Assembly: GCF_024124545.1 (NCBI RefSeq)
Contig: NZ_JAMXSF010000012.1
Coordinates: 1 to 64,000 of the forward strand
Direction of reading: 5' to 3'
Length of the DNA stretch: 64,000 bases
Source of the DNA: Pseudoalteromonas sp. XMcav2-N
GTDB lineage: Bacteria; Pseudomonadota; Gammaproteobacteria; Enterobacterales; Alteromonadaceae
Numbering within the stretch: position 1 is the first letter of the stretch; each line of letters starts with the position of its first letter. Below are positions 24,639 to 42,075 of the stretch, one piece after another. Position numbers and translations under genes: made by a program. A model generated the notes under the pieces. It was not told the origin of the DNA and searched no databases. It was given only the letters and a program-made list of their open reading frames with translations.

Positions 24639-25004
24639 ATGTCACATGCACCCATTAATTTTGCCGAAAAATTGACCCTGTTTTCAGAGCACTGGAGCCC
24701 AAAAGTCATAGCTGAAATGAACGACTATCAGTTCAAACTGGTAAAACTTCAGGGGGAATTTGTCTGGCACGATCACCCCGGCACCGACGAAGTATTTATC
24801 GTGCTTTCAGGAGAGATGTACATTGCCTTTCGAGACCGTACAGAATATCTGAAAGAGGGTGACATGCTGGTCGTCCCCAAAGGTGCAGAACACAAACCCT
24901 ATGCAGAGCATGAGTGCCAGGTACTTATTATCGAACCCAAAGGGGTCGTCAATACCGGAGAGGCCGACAGCTCCCTCACCGCACAAAACGATGTCTGGAT
25001 CTAA
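24639..25004 (+). CDS. Small cupin-domain protein
   Basis: The 121-residue product is a single cupin barrel. The first metal motif is WHDHPGTDEVFIVLSG (His-X-His...Glu) and the second is KGAEHKPYAEHEC with the fourth histidine, so all four ligands appear present. Family members include small-molecule dioxygenases, isomerases and sensors, and the substrate cannot be deduced here. It follows the sulfate operon by 63 bp, with an AAGGAA Shine-Dalgarno, and may be co-expressed with it. Confidence 0.85.
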   Translation: MSHAPINFAEKLTLFSEHWSPKVIAEMNDYQFKLVKLQGEFVWHDHPGTDEVFIVLSGEMYIAFRDRTEYLKEGDMLVVPKGAEHKPYAEHECQVLIIEPKGVVNTGEADSSLTAQNDVWI

Positions 25005-25181
25005 CGCACAGATGTAAGGCGAACGAACCTAATAAAGAAACAGGCTTAGCGAATTAGTTTGGCTTTTTATTAAGCAATTGAATCAGATATGTGCGACTTT
25101 TTCCTCTTTAGCTAGTGACAAGCCTGTTAAAAATTTTTATACTGCCAGCGCTTTTTAGGTCTGTGCTAAAAGCGCGCTCAA
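25005..25181 (+). promoter_or_regulatory. Promoter and 5' hairpin of the CAU tRNA transcript
   Basis: No gene lies here. A strong sigma-70-type promoter is visible: -35 GTGACA (25115-25120), a 17-bp spacer and -10 TATACT (25138-25143), followed by the GC-rich discriminator GCCAGCGC typical of stable RNA genes. A hairpin at 25148-25175 (GCGCTTTT/AAAAGCGC plus two more pairs) starts at about the expected transcription start. The next annotated object downstream is the tandem repeat and then the tRNA, with no other promoter of equal quality in between. Confidence 0.65.
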
Positions 25182-25431
25182 TTTATCGAGCACTACAATT
25201 TGAAAATGGCCCTATAGCTCAGTTGGGCGAAACAAGACCGAAGCACCGCTTCGCAGCTTGTTGAGGTGGAGGCAGGACGCCGACAGGACCTCGCTTCATG
25301 GATGAATTTATTGAGCACTACAATTTGGAAATGGCCCTATAGCTCAGTTGGGCGAAACAAGACCGAAGCGCCGCTTCGCAGCTTGTTGAGGTGGAGGCAG
25401 GACGCCGACAGGACCTCGCTTCATGGACGAA
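25182..25431 (+). repeat. Two 125-bp tandem repeats, each with a truncated tRNA 5' end and two hairpins
   Basis: The copies at 25182-25306 and 25307-25431 differ at only 4 of 125 positions, all transitions. Each holds a 26-nt flank, then GGCCCTATAGCTCAGTTGG, the first 19 nt of the adjacent tRNA. Instead of the rest of the tRNA comes a nested hairpin (25231-25262: AACAAG/CTTGTT outside, GAAGC/GCTTC inside) and a second one (25263-25292: GAGGT/ACCTC outside, GGC/GCC inside). A third partial copy of the flank runs into the genuine tRNA at 25458. No tRNA anticodon or T arm exists in the two units. Confidence 0.95.
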
Positions 25432-25457
25432 TTTATTGAGCACTACAATTTGAAAAT

Positions 25458-25534
25458 GGCCCTATAGCTCAGTTGGTTAGAGCACCCGACTCATAATCGG
25501 TAGGTCCCTGGTTCAAGTCCAGGTGGGGCCACCA
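25458..25534 (+). tRNA. tRNA with CAU anticodon, probably tRNA-Ile2 (lysidine type)
   Basis: A complete 77-nt cloverleaf starting GGCCCTATAGCTCAGTTGG, anticodon loop CTCATAA (anticodon CAU), T arm CCTGG/CCAGG, ending GGGGCCACCA with encoded CCA. The GGCCC/GGGCC acceptor stem and GGTTCAAGTCCAG T arm look more like E. coli tRNA-Ile2 (ileX), whose C34 TilS modifies to lysidine, than elongator tRNA-Met, and it is not the initiator. The Ile2/Met decision needs an identity-element model. Confidence 0.93.
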
Positions 25535-25689
25535 TTTTCACCTCCTTTAGTACTTTTATGTATCAATTCTCGTCATTAAACCTGATGACTTTTATTATTC
25601 TCAACTAGTCTACCTTAGAACCAAAAACCTTAGCGCCCCACTCCGGTTCCAAGTATCCTAACACTTCCGCATATCAAAGGATTTATTTC

Positions 25690-26265
25690 ATGCCCAATCA
25701 AATGTTTACCGATGTCGAGCTTCGCATTATGTCAATTCATGTTAAATCGCAGGGCTTCGTCGACAAGTTACTCAGCGAAAGTAAGTTTGAAATTAAGGTA
25801 TTTAGTGCCGTAAGTGACGGGGTAGCAGACCATGCATTTAATATGGAGCTGAACGTGATGCCGGTCAGCGAAGGCGGTACCATTAGCTTTGGCCCTGCGG
25901 GTTACACGATTTACCGTAATCGTGCCGGACAGATCCCGCGTTTTCTTGATGCCCATATTGCCGTCTTAGAAGATGACAGTGATATTCGCAGCACGGCCAA
26001 GCTGATGGCCCAGGTCCGAAAAACCGCAGCATTTGGCGAGCTCACCCGCACCGTCGTGGCTGCGGCGGCCAATCCTTTGTTTGCAGTCGGTATGAATGTG
26101 GCTGAAAGCCTGATGGATATTTCCATCGATGTGCTAAAGGACAATAAAGACGACCTGTGGCTGCGCCGTTTCTTCAGTTTTAACTACAATATTGAAGGTT
26201 ATGAGGGTGTTGCAGAGTTTGAGTCTGACGAAGTGAAAATAACGCTGCAACTCTTTACCGGATAG
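25690..26265 (+). CDS. Uncharacterised conserved-looking protein
   Basis: The 191-residue protein is not one I recognise. It has an AAAGGA Shine-Dalgarno, neither signal peptide nor clear membrane helix, and an alternating hydrophobic pattern suggesting a beta-rich first half (SEGGTISFGPAGYTIYRNRAGQ) and a more helical middle (LTRTVVAAAANPLFAVGMNVAESLMD, quoted as two pieces: LTRTVVAAAANPLFAV and GMNVAESLMD). It stands alone between the tRNA and a convergent deacylase gene whose stop is 8 bp away. Codon use looks like its neighbours, so it is probably a real gene. Confidence 0.7.
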   Translation: MPNQMFTDVELRIMSIHVKSQGFVDKLLSESKFEIKVFSAVSDGVADHAFNMELNVMPVSEGGTISFGPAGYTIYRNRAGQIPRFLDAHIAVLEDDSDIRSTAKLMAQVRKTAAFGELTRTVVAAAANPLFAVGMNVAESLMDISIDVLKDNKDDLWLRRFFSFNYNIEGYEGVAEFESDEVKITLQLFTG

Positions 26266-41359: not shown

Positions 41360-41435
41360 TGGAGCGGCACACGAGGTTCGAACTCGTGACCTCGACCTTG
41401 GCAAGGTCGCGCTCTACCAGCTGAGCTAGTGCCGC
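41360..41435 (-). tRNA. tRNA-Gly (GCC), copy 1
   Basis: A complete 76-nt tRNA on the minus strand: GCGGCACTAGCTCAGCTGG start, anticodon loop TTGCCAA (GCC), T arm ACGAG/CTCGT, CCA encoded. It is the last unit transcribed in the array, nearest to rpsF. Confidence 0.96.
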
Positions 41436-41460
41436 TTCATAATTTGCTCAATTGTTTTAA

Positions 41461-41514
41461 ACGCTGGTTCGCGACGGGTCGCGTCTAACGTTTTAGCAGC
41501 TGAGCTAGTGCTGC
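41461..41514 (-). pseudogene. Half-tRNA-Gly plus hairpin unit, P1
   Basis: This 54-nt element begins on the minus strand with GCAGCACTAGCTCAGCTG, the first 18 nt of tRNA-Gly with one change (G3 to A). It then runs into the arm CTAAAACGTTAGACGCGAC, which folds back on GTCGCGAACCAGCGT. No anticodon or T arm is present. It occupies the place that copy 3 has in the duplicated upstream half of the array. Confidence 0.85.
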
Positions 41515-41584
41515 ATCACAGGGTATGGAAATATAATCCAATACAAACTCGTTATTTAGTCAGTCGAGTAAACTGATTGTAGAT

Positions 41585-41660
41585 TGGAGCGGCACACGAG
41601 GTTCGAACTCGTGACCTCGACCTTGGCAAGGTCGCGCTCTACCAGCTGAGCTAGTGCCGC
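41585..41660 (-). tRNA. tRNA-Gly (GCC), copy 2
   Basis: Sequence identical to the other three glycine tRNA copies: 76 nt, anticodon GCC, CCA encoded. It lies inside a 153-bp exact duplicate of the region holding copy 4. Confidence 0.96.
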
Positions 41661-41683
41661 TTCATAAGTTATGGAATATTAAA

Positions 41684-41737
41684 ACGCTGGTGCGCGACGG
41701 GTCGCGTCTAACATTTTAGCAGCAGAGCCAGTGCCGC
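41684..41737 (-). pseudogene. Half-tRNA-Gly plus hairpin unit, P2
   Basis: This unit has the same 54-nt layout as P3 with three substitutions, two of them in the tRNA-derived part (GCGGCACTGGCTCTGCTG), so the D stem is more decayed. The hairpin core CGCGAC/GTCGCG is intact. It adjoins P3 in tandem, 23 bp away. Confidence 0.85.
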
Positions 41738-41760
41738 ATTCCTGATTACTCATATTTTAA

Positions 41761-41814
41761 ACGCTGGTGCGCGACGGGTCGCGTCTAACGTTTTAGCAGC
41801 TGAGCTAGTGCCGC
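41761..41814 (-). pseudogene. Half-tRNA-Gly plus hairpin unit, P3
   Basis: The first 18 nt, GCGGCACTAGCTCAGCTG, are identical to tRNA-Gly. The sequence then switches to a hairpin: AAACG/CGTTT outside and CGCGAC/GTCGCG inside, about 15 pairs with small bulges around a CC turn. It lies between tRNA copies 2 and 3 and is read in the same direction. Confidence 0.87.
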
Positions 41815-41853
41815 TTTATAAAAGATATCTAGTTTATACACCTGAAGAAGTGT

Positions 41854-41929
41854 TGGAGCGGCACACGAGGTTCGAACTCGTGACCTCGACCTTGGCAAGG
41901 TCGCGCTCTACCAGCTGAGCTAGTGCCGC
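41854..41929 (-). tRNA. tRNA-Gly (GCC), copy 3
   Basis: A 76-nt tRNA-Gly identical to the other copies, with CCA encoded. It is separated from copy 4 by a 70-bp spacer that recurs exactly between P1 and copy 2. Confidence 0.96.
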
Positions 41930-41999
41930 ATCACAGGGTATGGAAATATAATCCAATACAAACTCGTTATTTAGTCAGTCGAGTAAACTGATTGTAGAT

Positions 42000-42075
42000 T
42001 GGAGCGGCACACGAGGTTCGAACTCGTGACCTCGACCTTGGCAAGGTCGCGCTCTACCAGCTGAGCTAGTGCCGC
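42000..42075 (-). tRNA. tRNA-Gly (GCC), copy 4 (first transcribed)
   Basis: A 76-nt tRNA-Gly identical to the other copies, with CCA encoded. It is the promoter-proximal member of the array, about 45 nt downstream of the expected transcription start. Confidence 0.96.

Follow-up and report, generated by a model that had tools for sequence, protein, structure and literature searches.

Tandem hairpin repeats carrying a tRNA 5' end in Pseudoalteromonas: a probable D-loop counterpart of the tRNA-linked repeats of Escherichia coli

The window analyzed here, a 64,000-nucleotide (nt) stretch of DNA from Pseudoalteromonas sp. XMcav2-N (positions 1 to 64,000 of contig NZ_JAMXSF010000012.1), contains, directly upstream of a tRNA gene with anticodon CAU, a tandem pair of 125-bp units, in which a short leader and the first 19 nt of the tRNA are joined, at the D loop, to a module of hairpins. 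Units of the same build are found at other tRNA genes, in the same genome and in many genera of the Gammaproteobacteria, and their module is shared with elements of the rtT type. The explanation favored here, held with somewhat better than even confidence, is that the repeats are the 5', D-loop counterpart of the tRNA-linked repeats (TLRs) of E. coli, and that they arose when a module inserted and duplicated its target, were next multiplied in tandem and then came under constraint. The rear-end TLRs of E. coli are already known; the front-end, D-loop variant carrying the same module appears to be new.

Results

Anatomy of the repeats in the window

The two copies, at 25180-25304 and 25305-25429, are identical at 121 of 125 positions; the four differences (25187/25312 C/T, 25203/25328 A/G, 25245/25370 A/G and 25303/25428 T/C) are all transitions. 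A direct repeat comparison bears out the pair as described in the first-pass annotation, except that its true start lies 2 bp to the left of the 25182 given there. Each unit is composed of a 28-nt leader, nt 1-19 of the tRNA and a 78-nt hairpin module. The tRNA piece, GGCCCTATAGCTCAGTTGG, shows no difference, in either copy, from nt 1-19 of the CAT tRNA (25458-25534), as had been claimed, and stops at the D-loop G18G19. A third copy of leader and 19 nt leads straight into the intact CAU tRNA: the duplicated segment is, in this case, 47 nt long (28 nt of leader plus tRNA nt 1-19). Each module features four hairpin parts, a stem A around hairpin B, followed by hairpins C and D, where two hairpins had originally been described; their reality is supported by covariation (see below). 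The trinucleotide GGA occurs four times in the first module, at 25268, 25275, 25286 and 25300. The features of the locus, all on the + strand, are the following:

25115..25143, +: sigma-70-like promoter, GTGACA-17-TATACT (consensus scan, 10 of 12 positions)
25180..25207, +: leader, copy 1 (28 nt; direct repeat family)
25208..25226, +: 5' tRNA fragment, copy 1 (nt 1-19, with the D-loop GG end; identical to 25458-25476)
25227..25304, +: hairpin module, copy 1: starts with GCGA, followed by stem A (25231-25236 paired to 25257-25262, enclosing hairpin B) and hairpins C and D (alignment and pair counts)
25305..25332, +: leader, copy 2 (28 nt; direct repeat)
25333..25351, +: 5' tRNA fragment, copy 2 (tRNA nt 1-19; direct repeat)
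25352..25429, +: hairpin module, copy 2 (direct repeat, alignment and pair counts)
25430..25457, +: leader, copy 3, abutting the intact tRNA (direct repeat)
25458..25534, +: intact tRNA, anticodon CAU (ARAGORN; Rfam tRNA, 70.9 bits)

The intact tRNA, labeled Met(cat) by ARAGORN, is presumably a tRNA-Ile2 of the lysidine type, given its similarity to E. coli ileX; it has one match at E <= 1e-20 in the genome. The promoter-like box, already noted in the first-pass annotation and recovered by the scan, lies upstream of both copies. Two such sites are found in 25000-25700, against 0.8 expected, and a similar box precedes the Ile2 tRNA in the leaders of other species that were inspected, with or without repeats. 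Since the box precedes the repeats here, and the Ile2 tRNA in the other species, the repeats are expected to lie inside the tRNA transcript, where they would form a leader of some 300 nt on the tRNA precursor; the earlier suggestion to this effect is thus supported, at the level of sequence inference. Cleavage by RNase P at 25208 and 25333 is not expected, as the partial copies lack the 3' acceptor strand.

Copies in the same genome and genus

The first-pass annotation had proposed a search for the 125-bp unit and for its hairpin part, and both are found elsewhere. In the same genome, BLAST identifies ten further places at E <= 6e-4, besides the three stretches in the window (26 places at E <= 10, many by chance), while the exact hairpin pattern is found at 14 places in all. 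Two copies lie in a tRNA-Lys array, where the junction likewise follows AGCTCAGTTGG. The unit is matched, at E <= 1e-5, in 44 of 108 Pseudoalteromonas genomes, and within the genus the junction after G19 is common to tRNA-Ile2, Lys, Phe and Val.

At the Ile2 locus, the module type of the window is present in 17 genomes, in 1 to 3 tandem copies. An empty Ile2 site is found in one species (G080), whose relatives G078 and G079 carry an insert (152 nt in G078) of another module type. The Ile2 module of the window is matched, without a difference in 87 nt, by a module linked to tRNA-Phe in G051; modules, therefore, move or are copied between tRNA loci. Their presence is patchy between species. Partial copies with substitutions occur in G007, G062, G034, G073 and G055, and some units are shortened (L082).

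Several variants of this arrangement were observed. Two further module types occupy the same Ile2 D-loop spot in other Pseudoalteromonas (L036, L141, L134; L030, L137, L139); in type 2, the first stem differs between species, with pairing kept. In some Phe-linked fragments (L039, L044, L045, L106), GTTGG replaces the GTCGG of the intact tRNA-Phe; the end of these fragments may derive from another tRNA or from the module. In an eight-gene tRNA-Lys array (L070, G046) a module unit lies before or after each gene, with a 230-bp spacing in most of the array, and in G044 (L304/L146) the first of two Ile2-like genes is cut short in its 3' half.

Modules are also found away from tRNA genes. Some lie beside 5S rRNA 3' ends, on the opposite strand (L004 and L006, on contigs C33 and C44 of G000; L087, in G106), where 5S 3' fragments and terminators are duplicated in a row; in one such case, from the same genome as the window, the 5S fragment is duplicated. 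Others lie directly at the ends of protein genes, the GGGTGA of the module start providing the stop codon (L305, G000 C40; L318, G705); the gene at L318 is rimK-like, as named by eye. The notion of a local, or genus-confined, oddity is contradicted by these findings at other loci, beside 5S genes and at protein-gene ends, and by the presence of the repeats in other genera.

Distribution in Gammaproteobacteria

The exact chimera of the window type (type 1) is found in 2 of 394 genomes of the order, both from Pseudoalteromonas, a genus contributing four of the 394; broader patterns reached other genera. A pattern search of named genomes returned 57 stretches, some of them chance matches in protein genes; the architecture is also present in Microbulbifer, Marinimicrobium, Pseudohongiella, Aestuariibacter, Sedimenticola and several metagenome-assembled genomes. 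A pattern which itself requires the D-loop junction is matched in 55 of 369 genomes of the class (50 of 272 genera); the reversed pattern, used as control, gives 9.

Outside the Pseudoalteromonas sp. XMcav2-N genome, the matches define 83 distinct places. For 58 of them a second copy of the D-loop stretch is found 120 to 290 nt downstream, identical at 19 out of 19 nt in 48 cases. The 25 remaining places include five real units, located at contig ends or row ends (L246, L253, L268, L269, L273); the other 20 look like chance matches, as judged by eye. In the 58 places, the identity between the two copies, followed leftwards, covers less than 19 nt in 7, 19-25 nt in 34 and 26-51 nt in 10; in the last 7 it runs to the 80-nt limit, as tandem units would do.

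Places were assigned to isotypes by the first tRNA called on their downstream side: Arg in 16, Met(cat) in 8, Thr in 8, Phe in 5, Lys in 5, His in 3, Val in 3, Gly in 2, Ile and Asn in one each, with none called in 6. The D-loop junction is thus found at ten tRNA isotypes in the class sample. A pattern devoid of tRNA sequence, applied to 12 chosen genomes, detected 17 places (4 for the reversed control). Ten were judged to be modules, 8 of which are joined to a tRNA 5' fragment; the other 7 places are protein-coding or unclear. A remainder of the tRNA (nt 20-76) was not found after the module in any of the modules inspected.

Secondary structure and sequence constraint

The fold of one unit alone is no better than those of shuffled sequences (z -1.19; 25 of 200 shuffles equally good). 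Of the class units, 35 out of 55 fold below all 20 of their own shuffles. Modules of Pseudoalteromonas were compared in an alignment of 44, made up of 42 from a list of 69 and both copies of the window. Standard pairs occupy 96.3% of the cells, ten pairs have changed in both partners, and covariation scores 0.342, a value reached by none of 500 shuffled alignments (0.103 +/- 0.011); shuffled and exchanged controls, here and below, leave the relatedness among sequences in place. The hairpin structure is regarded as real, because both pairing and covariation are evident in this comparison.

Stem A starts directly after a GYGA and stops directly before a GAR. It contains at least 3 pairs in 136 of 156 distinct units collected from the loci. 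Five pairs are formed in 67% of 60 distinct arm pairs, preselected in that they were drawn from the 136 units where the stem was found, against 9.4% with arms exchanged (200 rounds, maximum 18%).

Variation per site, measured at the Ile2 locus in 17 genomes, amounts to 0.17 in the spacer and to 0.036-0.043 in the tRNA fragment; within the module it is 0.010 in hairpin D, 0.051-0.056 in the B and C stretches and 0.11-0.14 in the arms of stem A, where changes are largely paired. Fragment and module are therefore kept under constraint: they are less variable than the spacer, and their stems change in compensating pairs. Paired changes might also stem from template switching in palindromes, without selection; this could not explain the low variation of the tRNA fragment.

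GGA is the commonest triplet in the predicted hairpin loops of 55 class units (three of the 58, longer than 205 nt, were dropped), with 68 occurrences against 23.2 in shuffled sequences, corresponding to 1.24 versus 0.36 per unit; the total number of GGA per unit is barely raised (3.60 versus 3.14). The loop of hairpin C contains GGA in 26 of the 39 distinct units where this hairpin was found (13% in shuffled sequences), and two loop GGA are invariant across the 44 Pseudoalteromonas modules. Hairpins with GGA in the loop are not common in the window as a whole. Of 13 genomes tested for CsrA, 12 encode it, including that of Pseudoalteromonas sp. XMcav2-N. The GGA loops suggest, from sequence, a binding of CsrA.

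Relation to tRNA-linked repeats

TLRs were first described in 1978, and their function was not known at the start of a 2021 study, passages of which (PMC8144298) report 22 of them in E. coli, at ten loci in tRNA and rRNA operons, all sharing 18-19 bp with the 3' end of the gene upstream. Members of the family are rtT/rttR (Rfam RF00391, RtT) and rrA/rrB/rrF. According to the same passages, an early functional claim was retracted, three 5S-linked TLRs bind Hfq and CsrA in vitro, and a CsrB/C-like score of less than 0.01 is obtained for the 19 TLRs found in tRNA operons. RtT RNAs are released from tRNA operon transcripts, as stated in a section of PMC4986893.

The connection with TLRs was recognised from one class locus (L273, in G508), in which an Rfam RtT match, below cut-off, lies just after a tRNA-Ser, together with a copy of the 3' end of that tRNA, and directly upstream of D-loop units. 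RtT matches at E <= 0.01 are found in 53 of 229 class genomes, and exceed the cut-off in 15 of these genomes. For 19 of 30 RtT loci an exact copy of the 3' 19 nt of the linked tRNA (Ser, Gln or Tyr) is present; for the other 11 it is not. The GYGA-stem-GAR module is found in 20 of 30 RtT stretches (29 of the 30 loci plus E. coli; L335, which contains N, was left out), against 1.8 in shuffled sequences, and adjoins the tRNA piece, as in window-type repeats. E. coli tyrV/rttR features the same anatomy, with 42 nt duplicated. An rtT-like element is also present in the genome of the window, after tRNA-Ser(GCT) (L350, G000 C14:14012-14146; 43.5 bits, cut-off 45), where the end of the tRNA and its 3' flank, 39 nt in all, are duplicated. 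The rtT RNA, cited as a precedent by the first-pass annotation, is accordingly more than an analogy, since rtT-type elements share the GYGA-stem-GAR module, one of them on a tRNA of the same genome.

Window repeats and TLRs are alike in several respects: both contain 18-19 nt of the mature end of the neighboring RNA, a hairpin body and tandem copies; both are located in operons of stable RNAs (tRNA or rRNA), the window repeats between promoter and tRNA; in both the flank of the target is duplicated, over 42 nt in tyrV/rttR, 39 nt at tRNA-Ser(GCT) and 47 nt in the window. They differ in polarity: TLRs contain the 3' end of the upstream gene, with the break at the T loop, while the window repeats contain the 5' end of the downstream gene, with the break at the D loop. 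The 19 shared nt come from the 5' end of a downstream tRNA rather than from the 3' end of an RNA gene upstream, which places the window repeats outside the TLR family as defined; by their TLR-like build and shared module, they are a 5', D-loop variant of it. No description of a 5', D-loop-joined class of repeats was found in an open-access library of papers.

Comparison with other known families

Only the tRNA is above the Rfam cut-off at the window; at 12 Pseudoalteromonas loci only tRNA and rRNA are, and at 20 class loci all matches but tRNA are below it, including RtT in L273 and, in two loci, weak matches to RsmY, far below cut-off. The CsrB, CsrC, RsmX, RsmY and RsmZ small RNAs (sRNAs) resemble the window repeats in their repeated hairpins with loop GGA (four GGA per window unit); unlike them, the window repeats lie in a tRNA leader and carry a tRNA fragment, and their binding to CsrA is putative. 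Rickettsia palindromic elements are also short palindromic repeats that may enter genes.

REP/BIME sequences are likewise short and palindromic; the window repeats are set apart from them by having few copies, a constant junction at the D loop, an extensive duplication of the target and an intact tRNA that is retained. The Y1_Tnp domain (PF01797) has 0 matches in the Pseudoalteromonas sp. XMcav2-N genome; it is found in 12 of 16 other module-bearing genomes tested, the four without it being G062, G106, G508 and G660. A RAYT/REP origin is not needed, given the absence of Y1_Tnp from these five genomes; elsewhere it may apply. An origin as phage cargo was rejected, no phage match being found for the module at E <= 0.01; two pattern matches occur in viral contigs. 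Plasmid cargo was also rejected: among the matches listed (8 of 833 plasmid records), only the tRNA end of the query was matched. Readings as a self-cleaving ribozyme or a k-turn, weighed by eye, were not retained.

Elsewhere in the window, four tRNA-Gly(GCC) genes lie in a row at 41360-42075, on the minus strand.

Discussion

The favored explanation starts from a small, non-autonomous hairpin module, which would have inserted in the D loop directly after G18G19, duplicating the target to its left, i.e. 28 nt of leader plus tRNA nt 1-19, 47 nt in all; the outcome would be an intact tRNA downstream and a harmless 5' fragment upstream. This step is suggested by the anatomy and by one empty site of a related module type. 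The 125-bp unit would then have been copied in tandem; different copy numbers, from 1 to 3, are indeed observed in related species. RNase P, in maturing the 5' end of the tRNA, would release the leader of about 300 nt, and fragment and module would afterwards be held under constraint. Rear-end TLRs, in which the mirrored anatomy is directly observed, would result when a module enters the T loop and duplicates the target on its right; only insertions leaving an intact tRNA would survive. Insertion at one of the two elbow loops, with target duplication, is the simplest account of the module common to both kinds, of their mirrored anatomy and of the minimum of 19 nt seen on each side.

The evidence counted in its favor includes the same junction at many tRNAs, the perfect fragments in 48 of 58 places, the empty versus filled Ile2 site, the variable copy number, the identity of the G051 module, covariation, low variation and the module shared with rtT-type elements. 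Identity running past the tRNA start into the leader, as in the ten places with 26-51 nt, was counted for insertion with duplication. The suggestion, in the first-pass annotation, of a palindromic element that invaded a tRNA gene through its D loop and was amplified afterwards is supported.

A number of observations weigh against this explanation. No mobilising enzyme was found, and the Y1 transposase is missing from the genome of the window, G062, G106, G508 and G660. No match to Rfam RF00391 (RtT) is found, up to E 5, within 25000-25650. The empty site in G080 could alternatively be a precise deletion between repeats. In 34 of the 58 places, moreover, identity covers 19-25 nt and stops at or near the start of the mature tRNA, with 48 of the 58 fragments perfect, while ageing of a plain insertion should erode fragment and leader alike. 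The fragment may be useful, or may have been recently renewed, or the duplication may begin at +1; what plain insertion chiefly leaves unexplained is that the left fragment is perfect while the leader next to it has diverged.

Alternatively, the repeats may be functional regulatory leaders, i.e. GGA-hairpin RNAs that bind CsrA/RsmA, are freed from tRNA precursors, are under selection for this role and have spread among tRNA genes by duplication and recombination, rather than by mobile insertion. This is considered rather unlikely, although it would account for the excess of GGA in loops (68 versus 23.2), its presence in hairpin C (26 of 39 units) and invariance in the 44 Pseudoalteromonas modules, the encoding of CsrA in 12 of 13 genomes and the lower variability of fragment and module relative to the spacer; the in vitro binding of CsrA to three E. 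coli TLRs, reported in the passages cited above (PMC8144298), points the same way. Total GGA, however, is barely raised (3.60 versus 3.14), the copies adjacent to 5S genes are antisense to rRNA, presence is patchy between species, and RsmY matches are far below cut-off; the score below 0.01 of 19 tRNA-operon TLRs as CsrB/C-like RNAs, taken from the same passages (PMC8144298), also argues against it. That the fragments match their own tRNA (19 out of 19 nt in 48 of 58 places) would also be expected from a maturation switch, in which the additional 5' acceptor strand in the leader would compete for pairing with the tRNA 3' strand and thereby tune processing, or would act as a decoy that diverts RNase P or RNase E. 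The complementarity of the module to tRNA nt 1-7 is 5.44, against 5.19 with exchanged tRNAs (reached by 1 in 100), but the signal is small and still includes relatedness, and modules are also found away from tRNA genes; such a role appears very improbable.

Substitutions in the partial copies of G007, G062, G034, G073 and G055, shortened units such as L082 and patchy presence would suit passive fossils, i.e. modules that landed long ago in duplicated tRNA genes and are now decaying without function. This is improbable: no remainder of tRNA nt 20-76 lies behind the modules inspected, the spacer (0.17) is about four times as variable as the tRNA fragment (0.036-0.043), and paired changes preserve the stems. 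Disfavored, and with hardly any probability assigned, is an origin as an element of the REP/BIME type that owes its mobility to a RAYT (Y1) transposase. The repeats are indeed palindromic, intergenic and tandem; the BIMEs of Enterobacteria include rtT-like attenuator elements, according to a passage of PMC2965389; and Y1_Tnp is matched in 12 of 16 module-bearing genomes. The domain is not found, though, in the genome of the window, G062, G106, G508 and G660, and the target is duplicated; copy number, 14 by exact pattern, is not REP-like, as REPs usually exceed 100 per genome (stated in part of PMC2817692).

Under the favored explanation, insertion at the D loop followed by constraint, the most plausible role is that of a small RNA whose production keeps pace with tRNA transcription, with putative CsrA-binding GGA loops. 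A broader proposal, put forward tentatively and with well under even confidence, is that class-wide mobile RNA modules, specialised in stable-RNA genes, enter the D or T loop (the two halves of the tRNA elbow), duplicate the rest of the target, leaving the tRNA intact, and so plant GGA-hairpin sRNAs at either end of tRNA transcripts, which would tie CsrA activity to tRNA synthesis; if so, the TLRs of E. coli would be only the rear-end half of the family.

For annotators, 5' tRNA fragments upstream of tRNA genes are to be seen as a recurrent structure, and not as assembly noise. A front-end, D-loop class, present in many genera and at many tRNA types and sharing its module with rtT-type elements, turns a local curiosity into a general phenomenon, whose origin and role become testable by means of empty sites, target duplications, tandem copy number and CsrA binding.
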